The position numbers were made by a program, and so were the translations under genes. A stretch of 43,594 bases of DNA, from contig JAGBZM010000032.1 of assembly GCA_017628235.1 (NCBI GenBank), forward strand, positions 1 through 43,594, in the 5' to 3' direction. The DNA is from Lentisphaeria bacterium. GTDB lineage: Bacteria; Verrucomicrobiota; Lentisphaeria; Victivallales; Victivallaceae. Below are positions 3,765 through 43,594 of this stretch, piece by piece. Position 1 is the first letter of the stretch; every line of letters begins with the position of its first letter. The notes beneath the pieces were generated by a model. That model ran no database searches, was not told where the DNA came from, and was given only the letters and a program-made list of their open reading frames with translations.

Positions 3765-3794
3765 GTTTTTGCCTTTTTATAATATAAAAACGGT

Positions 3795-3823
3795 TTGTAA
3801 TAACTATATCACCGGATTATATT
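3795..3823 (+). promoter_or_regulatory. Promoter of the fucosidase operon
   Basis: TTGTAA (3795-3800), spacer of 17, TATATT (3818-3823) followed by AAA. The transcript start is expected near 3830, about 50 bases before the ATG at 3879. It overlaps the opposite-strand promoter of the AraC gene almost completely. Confidence 0.7.
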
Positions 3824-3831
3824 AAAATCAA
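3803..3831 (-). promoter_or_regulatory. Promoter of the AraC regulator gene, overlapping the divergent operon promoter
   Basis: On the minus strand TTGATT (3826-3831), spacer of 17, TATAGT (3803-3808). It shares 21 bases with the plus-strand promoter at 3795-3823, so polymerase could hardly occupy both at once. Confidence 0.55.
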
Positions 3832-3878
3832 CAGGCGATAAAAATAATTTTACATTTTTTACCGGAGTTTTCATAAAT

Positions 3879-19373: not shown

Positions 19374-19414
19374 TCTTTACACCTTTTTACTTTATTCTGT
19401 CATGTTCTGCGTTT

Positions 19415-19443
19415 AATATATACGCAAATCACTGCTGTGTAAA
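19415..19443 (-). promoter_or_regulatory. Promoter of the DUF6259-pseudopilin 2-hydrolase genes
   Basis: On the minus strand TTTACA (19438-19443), spacer of 17, TATATT (19415-19420) followed by AAA. The start site near 19408 gives a leader of about 35 bases. Confidence 0.6.
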
Positions 19444-19475
19444 GAAATAAAATAATAAATAAATGTAACGATCCG

Positions 19476-35235: not shown

Positions 35236-35321
35236 AAATAATATCTCCTTGATTTTTATTATTTTTACATTAACCCGGTCATTTATAGCATTAACTGTAT
35301 ATAAAAGATCGGAACTGTTTT

Positions 35322-37758: not shown

Positions 37759-38736
37759 ATGTTTTCAGTGTCGTTGTCTGCATTCAACCGCGCGGCGGTC
37801 CTGCTTGCAGCCATTTTGTTCATGTCCGCCGTATGGGGACTCGGCCATATTCCGGATGCCAATTTGCAAATGATCGTTTTCACCAGTCTGGTTTCTGCGT
37901 TGCTGGCGGATATCGGGCCGTTTGGCAGCAGACTCAGGCAGGCTGTAATTTTGGCATGTTACAGTGCTGCTGCCCAATTTATTTTTTCAGTTTCAGGAAA
38001 ATTGCCTTTTCTGCAGGTGATCGTTTTCGTGATGTTTGCTTATTTTACCTTTTTGACTTTACCTGACCGCCGGGCCGGATGCATCGTGCTGCTGACCGGC
38101 TGCCTCGGGATTTCTGCTCCGCCGGGATTTCTTCCGGCTGCCGGCAGAAGTATCGATATTCTTACTGCAATACCCGTCATCATGGTTGTTACTGCTTTGG
38201 GCAATGCGGGACGGCAGGAGAACGGAGAAACCAATCTTGCACCGATCCCGTATTCTCCATATCAGGCAATGGTGTTCTCCGCCAAACTCGGTATCGCCAT
38301 GAGTATATCCGGCATATTGCAGCTGACTCAGGGAATATGGATCATGATGACACTGCTTTTTATAAATATGAGCAAAACATCTGATTCTTCCGGTGAAAAA
38401 CTTGCCTGGCAACGTGTATTTGCTGTGCCGGCGGGCATTCTTATCGGAGGCTTGCTGCTCGGAACATTTTTCCGGATCGATCACCGTTTCATCTGGCTGC
38501 TTCCATTGGTTGCTGCGACCGGTTTTTTCATTCTTTACAGCGGCAATTTTTTTCTGTTTTCCATTATTTTCATGATAACGCTGACAGTTTTTTCAGATTG
38601 GCAGACGGGAGCCGGTCACAGATTCAACTTCTGGGAAAACTTTTTTCCCCGTACAACCGCCACCTGGATCGGTGCAATGATCGAGCTGCTTTCCGGTTAT
38701 CCCGGAAAATATAACCAAGGAGATGCCTCGCGATGA
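37759..38736 (+). CDS. FUSC-like inner-membrane exporter subunit
   Basis: A 325-residue inner-membrane protein with about ten hydrophobic segments arranged as two similar halves, resembling the membrane part of the FUSC family (AaeB/YccS-like aromatic acid and amphiphile exporters). The first half has ALLADIGPFGSRLRQA, the conserved loop of the family, and the second has LTQGIWIMMTLLFINM, which matches the usual second-half helix start. It is far shorter than AaeB (about 650 residues) because it lacks the large cytoplasmic domain. GAGGAG precedes the ATG. Its stop overlaps the HlyD start by four bases (ATGA). With the next two genes it should form a three-part efflux pump across both membranes. 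The substrate is unknown. Confidence 0.75.
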   Translation: MFSVSLSAFNRAAVLLAAILFMSAVWGLGHIPDANLQMIVFTSLVSALLADIGPFGSRLRQAVILACYSAAAQFIFSVSGKLPFLQVIVFVMFAYFTFLTLPDRRAGCIVLLTGCLGISAPPGFLPAAGRSIDILTAIPVIMVVTALGNAGRQENGETNLAPIPYSPYQAMVFSAKLGIAMSISGILQLTQGIWIMMTLLFINMSKTSDSSGEKLAWQRVFAVPAGILIGGLLLGTFFRIDHRFIWLLPLVAATGFFILYSGNFFLFSIIFMITLTVFSDWQTGAGHRFNFWENFFPRTTATWIGAMIELLSGYPGKYNQGDASR

Positions 38737-39761
38737 ACTTCATCAGAAAATACCTGCCGTTGACAGTATTGCTCATCATTTTGCTCTGTTGGGCGGGCTA
38801 TTGGCTTTTCTGGCATATCCGGCCTTTTACCGGCAACGCCTTCATCTTTGCCAACACCCGCCCGGTTTCCCCCTGGACCGCCGGATATATTACCCGGATA
38901 CTGGTGAAAAACAATCAATTTGTTGCCAGAGGCACTCCGTTATTCACAATATTTTCGCCTCCGTATCTGCTGAAAGCAGAGGAGTTGAAACACGAGTTGG
39001 AATCTCTTTGCGCCCAATTGAAAAGCTGTGAAGCAAACCGGGTCCGCGCCCTTGAGGAAATAAAAACATTCCGGGCCGATGTCGAAAAGTTCCGTTTCCT
39101 TTATTCACGCGGTGAAAAAATGTTCAAAGCTGCCGCCGTTTCAGAAGATTATGTCATCGACCAGCGGAGAAACCTCGAAGTGGCTCTCGCCGGTATGGCG
39201 GCAGCCGGACATAAAGCTGAAGCTCTGGCCCACGATTGTACTTCATTGCAGGCACAGATAAAAAAGACCGAAGCGGCACTGAAACTCCAGCAGATCTGGT
39301 GCCGGCAGACCACAGTAACAGCTTTAAGCGACGGATATGTGGTCAATATGACCATCTCACCGGGCGGATATTATAAACCGGGGGATATCCTGTTTGCTTT
39401 CATCGATTCATCCGAGTGGTATGTACAGGCAAATTTCAAAGAGAGTGAACTTTCTGAGATCGTTCCCGGAACCCGTGCCCGCATATGGCTCAGACAATAC
39501 CCCGGACGGGAATATCACGGCGAAGTTTGCAGCATCAACTGGGGAACTGAACGCCGTCTGACTGCCCCGCACACAGGGGTGGCCGAGGTGAAAAAGGAAA
39601 ATGAATGGTTCATGCTGCCGCAGAGATATCCGGTGCAGATCAGAATTCTCGATCCGGATAAAGATCTGCACTTGCATTTCGGCGGCAGTGCCTATGTGGA
39701 ACTGGAAATACCGGCTCATCCTTTCCGTCAATTTTTCTGGGAGTTGTTTTTGTGGCAATAA
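38733..39761 (+). CDS. HlyD/EmrA-like membrane fusion protein
   Basis: A 342-residue periplasmic adaptor anchored by one N-terminal helix (residues about 8-27). The barrel-sandwich hybrid begins with FTGNAFIFANTRPVSPWTAGYITRILVKNNQFVARGTPLF (in part the biotinyl-lipoyl motif). A long alpha-helical hairpin (about 75-190, rich in Glu, Lys and Ala) follows, and the second lipoyl half has TVTALSDGYVVNMTISPGGYYKPGD. The beta-barrel domain has VQANFKESELSEIVPGTRARIWL, a strong family signature. It links the FUSC subunit in the inner membrane to the outer-membrane channel encoded next. It is translationally coupled to both neighbours: a 4-base overlap in front and a 10-base overlap behind. Confidence 0.88.
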   Translation: MNFIRKYLPLTVLLIILLCWAGYWLFWHIRPFTGNAFIFANTRPVSPWTAGYITRILVKNNQFVARGTPLFTIFSPPYLLKAEELKHELESLCAQLKSCEANRVRALEEIKTFRADVEKFRFLYSRGEKMFKAAAVSEDYVIDQRRNLEVALAGMAAAGHKAEALAHDCTSLQAQIKKTEAALKLQQIWCRQTTVTALSDGYVVNMTISPGGYYKPGDILFAFIDSSEWYVQANFKESELSEIVPGTRARIWLRQYPGREYHGEVCSINWGTERRLTAPHTGVAEVKKENEWFMLPQRYPVQIRILDPDKDLHLHFGGSAYVELEIPAHPFRQFFWELFLWQ

Positions 39762-41230
39762 GATATGTTTATGCAAAATGCAGCGGAATATTTGTCCGTT
39801 TCCTTTACTGTATGCTGATTCCGGCGGTGATATTTCTGTCCGGCTGCATGTCTCCGCCGGGGCCGTTTGAAACGCTTGATGATTTCCGCCGGGGATTCGC
39901 TGTACCGGAAAATATTATGGAAATTCCCGCAGACCGGGTGTTGACATTGCAGCAAGCAGTGGAGACCGCATTGCACAACAATCCGACCAATCTGGCAGCG
40001 GCGCAATCAGTGTATGCTGCCAGATACGGATATCTTCGCGCACTGGCGGCTTATGCCCCGGAACTCAATGCCGGTTATTCACTCGGACACACTCTGTCTC
40101 GCGGCTGGGATCTGAAAAATCCGCCGGTCGGAGTTATGAAAAAGAATGACCATCTGATCACCAACGGAACCATTCAGGCCAGCTGGCTGCTTTTTGACGG
40201 CTTCGCCCGTGAACTGGAGACCATTATCGCCAGACAGGAATACAATAAAAGCACCAAAATCGAAAAAAACGTCAGACGTCTGCTGGCACGTGCCGTAGCT
40301 TATGCCTATTACGACATGTACCTTGCAGGGGAAGAAATGATTATCTGCGAAGAAGATCTGGCATTTCAGAATCTGGCATTGCAGCAGGAAGAGGAGAGAT
40401 TCCGCAACGGGCACACCTCCAAAGCTTCGGTTCTGAATTTCAAGATTCTCGCCGCCCGCGCCCGGAGCAATATCCGCAATGCCCGTTACCGCCGTCAGGT
40501 GGCATTTCATGCGTTATCCGCCCTGCTTGGATATACTGACCGGCAGCTGCCGGAGGATATCGAACTTCAGAAAATCTCCCGGAAAGAGCTGCCGTACATT
40601 TATGATGAAAATTATTATCTCGAACTTGCCGTCAGCAACCGTCCCGATCTGGCAGCAGAAAAGATCACCCTGCACATCAGTTGGCGGGAGAAACAAAAAT
40701 CTTATGCCGGATTTTTTCCGGAGTTCCGTCTTTTTTCAGAATTAACTTTCGATACCTATAACGCCCGCTACGGCGGTTACCGGGTGTCGGGATCCCACAG
40801 CAGCCGGGGAAGTTTCATTTACGGAGTGGAAGGCAAATGGAATATATTCCGGGGGCTGGCTGCGGTGAACAGTGTGCGGAGGCAGGAGGCTCTGGAAAAA
40901 GTTGCCTTATGGGGACTGAATGCGAAGTTTCTGGAAATCGCCGCCGAGGTCAAAGATGCACATGCACATTGCGAAAATGCCGGTTATCAGGTGAAAATTT
41001 TTCAAGACATGGCACAATGGGTGCGTGAGCAGCGCGATCTTGTTTTCAGTGAATACCGCAACGGCCGGGAAACGATAACGCGGCTGAATGAAGTTCAGGC
41101 AATATTGATCGAAGCGCAAAGCCAACTGGTCATTTCGGAAGTTGAATTCAGTAAAGCTGCAGCTCAGCTTGCCGCTGCCGCCGGTCTGCCGCTGTCCCGG
41201 CTTTATGACCTTCCTGAAACGCAGTTTTGA
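39752..41230 (+). CDS. TolC-type outer-membrane efflux lipoprotein
   Basis: A 492-residue outer-membrane factor. The N terminus is a lipoprotein signal: a basic start, a hydrophobic core, then the lipobox LSGC with the modified Cys at residue 32. Two OEP repeats follow, each with long amphipathic helices (TLQQAVETALHNNPTNLAAAQS near 70, then YLELAVSNRPDLAAEKI near 290), as expected for the periplasmic tunnel and beta-barrel of TolC-like channels. The GTG at 39752 overlaps the adaptor gene by ten bases and has GGGAG upstream. An in-frame ATG at 39813 is an alternative but would leave a short n-region. It completes the efflux operon; no clear terminator follows. Confidence 0.88.
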   Translation: MAIRYVYAKCSGIFVRFLYCMLIPAVIFLSGCMSPPGPFETLDDFRRGFAVPENIMEIPADRVLTLQQAVETALHNNPTNLAAAQSVYAARYGYLRALAAYAPELNAGYSLGHTLSRGWDLKNPPVGVMKKNDHLITNGTIQASWLLFDGFARELETIIARQEYNKSTKIEKNVRRLLARAVAYAYYDMYLAGEEMIICEEDLAFQNLALQQEEERFRNGHTSKASVLNFKILAARARSNIRNARYRRQVAFHALSALLGYTDRQLPEDIELQKISRKELPYIYDENYYLELAVSNRPDLAAEKITLHISWREKQKSYAGFFPEFRLFSELTFDTYNARYGGYRVSGSHSSRGSFIYGVEGKWNIFRGLAAVNSVRRQEALEKVALWGLNAKFLEIAAEVKDAHAHCENAGYQVKIFQDMAQWVREQRDLVFSEYRNGRETITRLNEVQAILIEAQSQLVISEVEFSKAAAQLAAAAGLPLSRLYDLPETQF

Positions 41231-41388
41231 AAAGCGCGATCAAACATTCCGGAGTATTAAACTTTTTTTGAAGACATTTCCGGTGATACTGTTTCAATAA
41301 AAAAAAGAGACTTCGGCTAAAATAAAATTCAATTCCAGATTGGACGAAAAAAGCATAGATTTTTGATTATCAGGCACTCTTTTGATTT

Positions 41389-41431
41389 ATTTGATTAGTT
41401 GACTTGCTAATTGAATTTTTTGTGATATATT
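41389..41431 (+). promoter_or_regulatory. Promoter and probable autoregulatory operator of the ArsR-type gene
   Basis: TTGCTA (41404-41409), spacer of 16, TATATT (41426-41431). An inverted repeat ATTTGATTAG (41389-41398) and CTAATTGAAT (41407-41416), matching at 8 of 10 positions around 8 bases, overlaps the -35. Its size and AT-rich arms suit an ArsR/SmtB-type dimer. The rest of the gap 41231-41388 shows no gene. Confidence 0.6.
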
Positions 41432-41449
41432 ATGCTGCAGGAGGCAATT

Positions 41450-41782
41450 ATGGAAATATCACAAGTTCTCAAAGCGATGAGTCACCCCATTCGTTTGCAG
41501 ATGGTGGAACTTCTGCTGCAAAGACGGATGTGTGTCCGCAGCCTGGCACGCCATTTTGAAGTCTCTGAACCTACCATTTCGGTACATTTGAAAGTGCTGA
41601 AAAATGCCGGACTTATCGTTGGCGAAAAGAAAAGTTACTATATGCACTACCACGTTATCCGGGAAAATGTCGCAGCTCTTTCGCAATTCTTTGCCGCCTT
41701 GTCCGTCACCCCGGCAGCGGAGCTGCAATGCTGCAAAAAGTCCGGTTCCTGTCATTGCAAATGCCACTCAAAGAAGGATTGA
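41450..41782 (+). CDS. ArsR/SmtB family metalloregulator with Cys-rich tail
   Basis: A 110-residue winged-helix repressor. LKAMSHPIRLQMVELLL, then MCVRSLARHFEVSEPTISVHLKVLKNAGLI (recognition helix about 38-50) and a beta wing GEKKSYYMHYHV are all typical of the family. Cys28 stands where the alpha-3 metal site lies in ArsR/CadC proteins. The unusual part is the C terminus: Cys94, Cys95, Cys101, Cys103 and Cys105 in the last 17 residues, together with His102 and His106, a likely metal-binding cluster. The ATG at 41450 follows AGGAGG; an upstream ATG at 41432 lies at the transcript start and is rejected. The HlyD-type gene starts 6 bases downstream and should be under its control. Confidence 0.88.
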   Translation: MEISQVLKAMSHPIRLQMVELLLQRRMCVRSLARHFEVSEPTISVHLKVLKNAGLIVGEKKSYYMHYHVIRENVAALSQFFAALSVTPAAELQCCKKSGSCHCKCHSKKD

Positions 41783-41788
41783 ATTTAT

Positions 41789-42655
41789 ATGAAACGCCAC
41801 CAGATAACCATTATCAAAGCGGCAATAATTCTGATTGTTGCCGGAATCGCTTTTTATTTCTGGAAACTTGCTCCGGTAAGCGTGCCGACTTTGGAAGTAA
41901 AGTCTTCGCTCATTGGGCAAACGGTTTTCGGAACCGGCACGCTTGAGGGCAAAACCCGTCTTGCCGTCAGTCCAAGAGAAACCGGCGCAATCCGCAAACT
42001 TTATGCCGATCAGGGAGATATGGTCAAAGCCGGAACTTTGCTGGTTGAAATGGATGCCGATGATATTCTTCAACAGAAACGCGTTGCCGAAGCAGAACTT
42101 GCAGTGGCGCAGGCGGCTTTACAGCGGATCGATGCTGAGATCCGTTCTGCCAAAGCCAATTTGGAATACGCCAATTCGATGTTTCAACGCAGTGAAAAAC
42201 TTTTATCCAGTAACGTCGAATCCCGTTCAACTTACGATAAAAACCGCCAGAATATGCTCGTCGCCGCCGCCGATTTTGAACAGGCAGGGAAACTCCGGAT
42301 CGAAGCAGAATCCACCCTTGCCAAACATCAGGCACAAATCGCTTATTACAACACCAAACTTGCCGAAACACGCTTGACTGCTCCTTTTGATGCCCTGATC
42401 GTCCGCCGTAACCGGGAACAGGGAGCCATCGTCAATCCGGGCGTTTCCATTATGGACATTGTGGATACCTCCACTATTTGGGCGTCGGTCTGGGTGGATG
42501 AAACGCAAATCGCCCATTTGCAAAACGGTCTTGCGGTGGATGTATTTTTCCGAACCTTGCCGAAGCAGCGTTTCTCCGGAAAAATCTGCCGTCTGTGGCG
42601 TGAAACTGACCGGGAAACGCGGGAATATAAAGTTGACATCGCTTTAGCAAAATAA
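41789..42655 (+). CDS. HlyD/RND-type membrane fusion protein, C-terminally truncated
   Basis: A 288-residue periplasmic adaptor with one N-terminal membrane anchor (about 8-26). Lipoyl-domain half RKLYADQGDMVKAGTLLVEM (about 70-90) is followed by a helical hairpin of about 80 residues and the second half TRLTAPFDALIVRRNREQGAIVNPGVS. The beta-barrel part ends at ETREYKVDIALAK and stops. Family members usually continue for another 60 or more residues with a membrane-proximal domain, so the protein is probably cut short. The stop codon falls at the edge of a markedly AT-rich stretch (from 42650), which looks like a junction left by an insertion or deletion. Whether it is functional is doubtful; the pump genes that should follow are missing. 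Confidence 0.75.
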   Translation: MKRHQITIIKAAIILIVAGIAFYFWKLAPVSVPTLEVKSSLIGQTVFGTGTLEGKTRLAVSPRETGAIRKLYADQGDMVKAGTLLVEMDADDILQQKRVAEAELAVAQAALQRIDAEIRSAKANLEYANSMFQRSEKLLSSNVESRSTYDKNRQNMLVAAADFEQAGKLRIEAESTLAKHQAQIAYYNTKLAETRLTAPFDALIVRRNREQGAIVNPGVSIMDIVDTSTIWASVWVDETQIAHLQNGLAVDVFFRTLPKQRFSGKICRLWRETDRETREYKVDIALAK

Positions 42656-42787
42656 AACTTAAAAATCCCAAACCTATTGAAAGTACTTTTAGGATTACAT
42701 TAAGACAACCTTCTATTTTTTCATAGATACTACTCTTTTTGAGGGTTACATATAATTTTTCCAATCGAGCAAATTTATCTGTAATCG
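42656..42787. other. AT-rich junction segment
   Basis: This stretch of about 130 bases is far richer in A and T than its surroundings and separates the truncated adaptor gene from the DUF4143 gene. On the minus strand a GTG-started frame from 42812 reads a plausible amphipathic peptide (ITDKFARLEKLYVTLKKSS and onward) as far as the junction, then continues antisense through the adaptor gene. It may be the stump of a gene cut at the same point. No inverted terminal repeats or target-site duplication are evident. Confidence 0.4.
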
Positions 42788-43594
42788 TCAAATCAATGAT
42801 GCCGGAATGCACAATACATTTTTATTTGGTAAAGGCATTATTTCGGGACAACTGCAGACCACTGCTCCTTTTTTTACTTTTATTGTGAGCTTGTCAAGTA
42901 CGCTGAAATGTTTGGCATATTCCCCTTTCGGAGTGGAAGACTTTTTGAATTCTATTGGATAAAATCCGTCTGCTGATTCAATAAGCAGGTCGATTTCTTT
43001 TTTGTCCTTATCGCGATAGAAATACAACGAGGGCTCGTTGATTCCGGCATTCCAGTAAGATTTCAGTATTTCTGAAATGCACCAGGTCTCAAAAAATTCT
43101 CCGCTCATTGCGCCTGCTTCCAGAGTTTCCGGAGTGGGCCAGCGGGTAAGATATGCACATAATCCGGTATCAAGCATATAGAGCTTGGGAGTCTTGACCA
43201 ACCTTGCTGTAAGGCTTCCGGTGTATGGATGATGCAGATATACGATCCGCGAAGAAGTAAGAATTGTCAGCCAGCTTTGAGCCGTTTTATTGTCAATTCC
43301 GGCATCTCTGGCAAGCTCCGCATTATTGAGCAACTGACCGGTTCTGGCAGCACAGGAGCAAAGGAATTTATAGAATTTATCAAGATCGTGAACTTTCGTA
43401 AGATTACGGATATCACGTTCAAGATAAGTGGCAATATAACTTGAATAGAAGAAGTCCCGTTCCTGTGGAGTTGCATTGATGACTTCCGGATAACAGCCCG
43501 TCCAGATGCGTTTGAATAATTCACTTGCACTGATGCCTTTTTCTGATGAAAACTGCAAATCAGGTGCAAAGGGGGTATTTTTTCTATCTGCCAG
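42788..43594 (-). CDS. DUF4143 ATPase, C-terminal part (5' end beyond the window)
   Basis: The frame is open to the right edge of the window (43594), so the gene's start lies outside it and the upstream ATP-binding domain (AAA_14) is not seen. Over 269 residues it shows the DUF4143 pattern: CYPEVINATPQERDFFYSSYIATYLERDI, then LARDAGIDNKTAQSWL (a helix-turn-helix-like element), KLYMLDTGLCAYLTRW, and near the end KEIDLLIES...FYPIEFKKS. The last resembles a PD-(D/E)xK nuclease fold motif. These proteins are common accessory genes in gut bacteria and archaea, sometimes linked to defence, toxin-antitoxin or mobile elements; the function is unknown. Its position beside the AT-rich junction suggests it arrived by transfer. 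Confidence 0.82.
   Translation of the reverse strand: MADRKNTPFAPDLQFSSEKGISASELFKRIWTGCYPEVINATPQERDFFYSSYIATYLERDIRNLTKVHDLDKFYKFLCSCAARTGQLLNNAELARDAGIDNKTAQSWLTILTSSRIVYLHHPYTGSLTARLVKTPKLYMLDTGLCAYLTRWPTPETLEAGAMSGEFFETWCISEILKSYWNAGINEPSLYFYRDKDKKEIDLLIESADGFYPIEFKKSSTPKGEYAKHFSVLDKLTIKVKKGAVVCSCPEIMPLPNKNVLCIPASLI

Follow-up and report, generated by a model that had tools for sequence, protein, structure and literature searches.

A broken copy of a shared, putative arsR/MacA-type exporter operon in an incomplete Lentisphaeria genome

Genes at the locus

The window analysed here, that is, the whole stretch of DNA under study, is a complete contig of 43594 bp (C7 of G000, the window's own genome), and it belongs to an assembly of 1.46 Mb in 80 contigs with an estimated completeness of 54%. 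At its right end an arsR-type regulator is followed by the gene of a MacA-type membrane-fusion protein (referred to below as the adaptor), by a short AT-rich strip and, on the other strand, by a DUF4143 gene (Table 1).

Table 1. Features at the right end of the window (window coordinates; a dot marks features without a strand)
Feature	Position	Strand	Remarks
arsR promoter/operator region	41387..41431	+	usual left edge of homology with the operons of other species
arsR/SmtB-family regulator, Cys/His-rich tail	41432..41782	+	HTH_5; NF033788 above cut-off
MacA-type membrane-fusion protein, 3'-truncated	41789..42655	+	288 of about 380 aa; domain and profile matches, orthologs
Open frame through the junction	42474..42812	-	probably not a gene
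Junction	42652..42653	.	last ortholog-like codon is 42650-42652
Adaptor stop codon	42653-42655	+	already within the joined DNA
AT-rich strip, 133 bp	42653..42785	.	no match in the searches made
AAA_14/DUF4143 ATPase-like gene, C-terminal 268 aa	42788..43594	-	cut by the contig end

A promoter-like match precedes the regulator at 41404, in a region where the scan returned seven such matches compared with 3.9 ± 2.3 in shuffles, and ArsR presumably still controls what remains of the transcript. Directly upstream of arsR, an operon for a FUSC-like protein, an HlyD adaptor and an outer-membrane efflux protein occupies 37759-41230, and a partly palindromic dispersed repeat of 41 bp is found at 41311-41351.

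The adaptor carries the barrel-sandwich/HlyD domains of the RND_mfp/MacA-type proteins (PF16576, E 3.5e-20; PF13437, E 2.6e-18) and scores 131 bits with the TIGR01730 model (cut-off 94.9), and it lacks the complete C-terminal part of such a protein. Its open reading frame ends in ...ETREYKVDIALAK at residue 288, directly before the stop, and the profile match covers model positions 1-226 of 322 as compared with 1-314 in an intact ortholog (locus L063), so that the stop does lie at an internal position of the family, as the first-pass annotation of this DNA had proposed. The same annotation would have been contradicted by orthologs ending at the same residue. Among the 35 adaptor relatives retrieved in a scan of the genome_contigs set (one genome per species) none ends there: 32 of them extend 92-106 residues beyond the matched part, and the contig end cuts the other three earlier than the matched end.

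The truncated gene is free of decay and constrained like the intact copies, with dN/dS values of 0.07-0.14 against eight relatives, which range from 0.02 to 0.25 when compared among themselves. This implies either a recent break or a join made in the assembly. By analogy with MacA, the fragment most likely no longer works as an exporter, since neither the transporter nor the final quarter of the adaptor is left.

The junction, the AT-rich strip and the DUF4143 gene

The strip that follows the last ortholog-like codon has a GC content of 26.3%, a value as low as this being reached by 11 of the 4347 overlapping 133-bp windows of the contig. When the gaps longer than 60 bp between the main open reading frames of the contig were compared, four of the 15 others (3765-3878, 19374-19475, 35236-35321 and 41231-41431) were found to have 24-29% GC, and the remaining 11 had 36-53%. 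The AT-rich DNA reported earlier is indeed there, but low GC shared with 4 out of 15 other gaps is by itself no mark of foreign DNA. A minus-strand frame had also been thought to be cut at this point. In the assembly this frame runs straight through the junction. Its strip part has no relatives, and an open frame as long as the strip arose in 664 out of 5000 Markov strips of the same composition (about 13%), so that it provides no evidence of a second broken gene.

Our searches with the strip returned the strip itself: its DNA matched only itself among the 34 genomes of the genus, as did its translated frame in these 34 genomes and in 137 genomes of the order, with no match of this frame in phages or plasmids. 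Degenerate-pattern scans, which reach close relatives only, gave 288 pattern hits in genome_contigs and 93 in viral_contigs, none of them confirmed. The comparison with Pfam (E up to 10) yielded chance-level hits to FGFR3_TM and Zwilch only, the comparison with PADLOC yielded none, and a reading of the frame as a SLATT-like membrane protein was left without support. Likewise, a search for residual adaptor homology beyond the junction failed to rise above chance, as on the given strand 357, 497, 328 and 381 of 500 Markov resamples reached the score observed with each of four orthologs, and for the reverse strand the corresponding numbers were between 26 and 135 of 300. No Rfam family was detected at the gathering threshold between 41200 and 43594, and the terminator scan showed no terminator-like site at the junction.

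The DUF4143 gene that had been placed after the adaptor on the opposite strand is present, albeit incomplete, as the contig ends within it at the last base of the window. Its DUF4143 domain is covered over the entire profile (positions 1-160 of 160, E 1.3e-45), and the gene is 96% identical in amino acids and 93% in nucleotides (over 810 bp) to a gene of 435 aa in a congener (G020), the similarity beginning at window position 42785 and including an exact stretch of 170 bp. The G020 homolog consists of AAA_14 plus DUF4143, and a corresponding N-terminal AAA_14 part of the window's gene would fall past the contig end. The DUF4143 half also matches a PADLOC candidate defence family, PDC-S01 (E 8.3e-58). 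In viral contigs a DUF4143 pattern gave eight hits, of which none was confirmed. Copies of the 41-bp repeat seen upstream of arsR flank the G020 gene on both sides (L039 7537-7577 and 8913-8953; 93% and 83% identical), and, judging by the translations, another copy seems to overlap the start of that gene.

The operon in related genomes

A permease gene and an ATPase gene come after the adaptor in G021, G012, L061 and L063, and those of L063 were identified in a domain scan as MacB_PCD/FtsX and ABC_tran; neither gene stands beside the adaptor in the window. Given that a MacB-like permease and an ABC ATPase come next in the relatives, the broken unit is, by its predicted products, an arsR/MacA-type ABC exporter operon. 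The orthologs that carry both parts back the earlier proposal that the remainder of the adaptor and the pump genes were lost from this locus. Elsewhere in G000 the rest of the operon is absent except for an 87-bp, 71% match to the ATPase on C33, which is weak evidence in a genome that is 54% complete. Among solved chains the best match of the L063 adaptor by E-value was an RND adaptor (6vej, 1.5e-29), with MacA in second place. It is therefore the ABC genes next to the adaptor, and not its scores, that carry the MacA-type label.

The arsR-adaptor-permease-ATPase operon appears to be horizontally exchanged. Among eight congeners (G007, G015, G017, G021, G022, G029, G031 and G033) it is more alike than rpoC in 19 out of 20 comparable pairs, which were counted by hand, the other 8 of the 28 pairs having no overlapping piece of the operon. 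For example, the operon is 97.1% identical over 347 bp between G031 and G015 (rpoC 76.8%), 96.7% over 902 bp between G007 and G033 (86.5%), 86.1% over 1058 bp between G021 and G022 (69.4%) and 88.4% over 2068 bp between G029 and G021 (77.4%). The margin is small for G007-G021 (87.3% vs 85.4%) and for G029-G031 (90.3% vs 86.8%). The opposite direction, which counts against exchange, is seen for G029-G017 (operon 88.0%, rpoC 89.4%) and, in a separate comparison, for G004-G021 (68.5% and 76.9%), the G004 copy being more distant; some of the rpoC identities for G015 and G004 are averages over overlapping BLAST pieces. Apart from this comparison G004 stands outside the pair count, as do G012 and G019, both without an rpoC match. 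G000 has no rpoC match either, and we infer the exchange of the window's own copy from the rpoC of the other species. This baseline was adopted because a pseudouridine synthase gene with Pfam S4 and PseudoU_synth_2 domains, which we take to be RsuA/RluB-like, could not resolve closeness, its identity being 71-78% in all 36 pairs of nine genomes.

The DNA flanking the operon differs between species, placing the copies in several genomic settings. On the left, homology with the window begins at 41380-41390 in 8 out of the 10 copies that reach there (G007, G021, G004, G038, G017, L061, L063 and L065), the exceptions being G033 (41217) and G012 (41770), and L061, L063 and G007 have some additional upstream DNA in common with one another. 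The right edges vary among the copies that are 96-98% alike to L061: in L063 the similarity is lost just before the ATPase stop, and in G015, G029 and G031 about 9, 37 and 107 bp after it, respectively. In more distant copies the similarity would be lost at the stop codon in any case. As to the first-pass view of the junction as the edge of a transferred segment, a transfer appears to have taken place, but the break sits inside the operon and not at its edge.

Two other species have cut copies. In G012 there is no arsR before the adaptor; a promoter-like sequence resembling the arsR promoter directly precedes the adaptor gene (L016 4780-4900), possibly making this an unregulated copy. In G019 the ATPase gene, without its first ~33 codons, is found mid-contig behind the end of an unrelated gene (L051 3790-4404). 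The cut copy in G000 fits this pattern, with the reservation that the other two also come from assemblies. In G021 the whole arsR-ABC operon is bracketed by direct repeats of ~110 bp, 88% identical (L015 796-912 and 4522-4640), and a third copy of this repeat is found on contig C18 of G000 (L057 2558-2657). One could go further and see in the operon a discrete cassette that moves among Lentisphaeria of the ruminant gut without any recognised transposase, its regulatory left edge conserved and its right edges ragged and sometimes broken internally, with the window holding one copy broken at one end; we consider this quite unlikely.

Origin of the break and comparison with known systems

The explanation we favour, at slightly better than an even chance, is a recent non-homologous rearrangement. 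An exchanged operon of arsR regulator, MacA-type adaptor, MacB-like permease and ABC ATPase would have been broken in this lineage, with codon 288 of the adaptor joined to unrelated DNA bearing the DUF4143 gene, and with the permease and the ATPase lost from this locus. The junction would then be present in the organism as the product of an illegitimate join, through deletion or replacement. In favour of a real junction, exact matches between the window around it and four orthologs do not exceed 18 bp, and none of the 12-mers that span it recurs in the contig, unlike the situation at the contig ends of the relatives (see below). If the break is real, it must have happened very recently, as the fragment is constrained like its relatives. 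Against the rearrangement stand the 80 contigs and 54% completeness of the assembly, together with a contig end 942 bp past the junction. Among the 34 genomes of the genus the junction occurs in G000 itself only, and the searches made turned up no source for the strip, the other partner in the join.

It is also possible, with a lower probability, that the junction is an artefact of assembly or binning, in which an operon present in several co-resident species caused the assembly graph to break or tangle, and the contig was joined to a DUF4143 piece of another genome or locus. A contig ends within the operon in 7 out of 12 carrier congeners (G000 counted) compared with 6 out of 26 for the 3.2 kb rpoC, a difference that is suggestive only (Fisher p = 0.064). 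Here, carriers were those of the 34 genus genomes (G000 included) with a membrane-fusion protein match of at least 59% in amino acids or an operon match of at least 71% in nucleotides over at least 330 bp, ATPase-like hits shorter than 200 bp being dropped; for rpoC, contig ends were judged by positions near base 1 or by splits over two contigs, and a 36-bp hit in G025 was dropped (27 to 26). At seven of eight tested contig ends in relatives, at least 118 bp are identical to the copy of another species, and the contigs of G007 (L019, 3' end) and G017 (L018, 5' end) end on the same exact 127-mer, 127 being a k-mer size that SPAdes uses. This 127-mer lies inside the adaptor gene, the two copies being otherwise 88.6% identical over 903 bp. 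The lack of decay in the adaptor fragment and the closeness of the contig end to the junction point in the same direction, as does a published benchmark in which short-read assemblies are reported to break around genes found in several contexts (PMC11479545). On the other hand, joins in an assembly graph require a shared k-mer, and around the junction no exact match to the four orthologs is longer than 18 bp, nor does any 12-mer spanning it recur in the contig. The DUF4143 side need not stem from a distant genome, as a congener has the gene at 93% nucleotide identity. In the same benchmark metaSPAdes produced no misassembled genes save in one dataset (PMC11479545), although it may not be the assembler used for G000.

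An insertion into the adaptor of a mobile element composed of the strip and the DUF4143 gene, with the remaining adaptor codons and the pump lying past the far end of the element and outside the contig, seems unlikely. The G020 homolog does stand in an unrelated setting between copies of the 41-bp dispersed repeat, and its close DNA identity with the window's gene, including the long exact stretch, would suit such an element. However, no transposase gene adjoins the junction, and there is no room for one, the DUF4143 gene taking 807 of the 942 bp up to the contig end. In addition, no exact repeat of at least 12 bp crosses the junction within the contig, the one inverted pair that touches it (42641-42657 and 42820-42836; 17 nt, 76%) is of a size that chance expects, the strip is unrepeated in G000 or in the genus, and the absent stretch of the operon did not turn up at any other place in G000, itself an incomplete genome. 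By far the least probable is a short adaptor that is a functional natural variant serving the upstream FUSC-adaptor-OEP operon. The frame stays open, and conserved, all the way to the junction, but none of the 35 relatives was seen to be short, the upstream operon already has an adaptor of its own (38733-39761), and the family model and the MacA chains cover the lost part to the end.

Overall, the locus is a broken copy, of an ordinary kind, of an operon shared between species; it may be an effect of assembly, and nothing about it needs a new mechanism or a new kind of system. The main point of the first-pass observation stands, the meaning of the AT-richness and the second cut frame have to be corrected, and the interpretation is partly supported. 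The case adds another broken example of an exporter operon that uncultured Lentisphaeria of the gut seem to pass from species to species, and it serves as a warning that, where genes of such operons are truncated beside a contig end, the cause may be the assembly and not the biology.

As compared with known systems, the locus resembles the benchmark's cases of genes cut in metagenome assemblies around multi-context genes (PMC11479545) in that the operon occurs in several contexts and contigs end inside it in many relatives; unlike those cases, the window's contig runs on through 942 bp of other DNA. With the AAA_14/DUF4143 genes (PADLOC PDC-S01) it has the DUF4143 domain in common, and it differs in that its AAA_14 part would lie beyond the contig end. 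With respect to MacA, all that is left in the window is the N-terminal portion of the adaptor (its first 288 residues), the last ~92 residues and the transporter genes being gone. Both the window adaptor (78 bits) and the intact L063 adaptor (98 bits) are below the MacA equivalog cut-off of 342 bits, the latter being above the RND_mfp subfamily cut-off. The intact operon is unlike MacAB operons in having the permease and the ATPase as separate genes and an ArsR regulator in front. It is like them in that the L063 adaptor aligns with MacA (chains 5nik, 3fpp and 9qgy) over 10-366 and is followed downstream by a MacB_PCD/FtsX permease (PF12704) and an ATPase of the DevA/LolD/MacB type.
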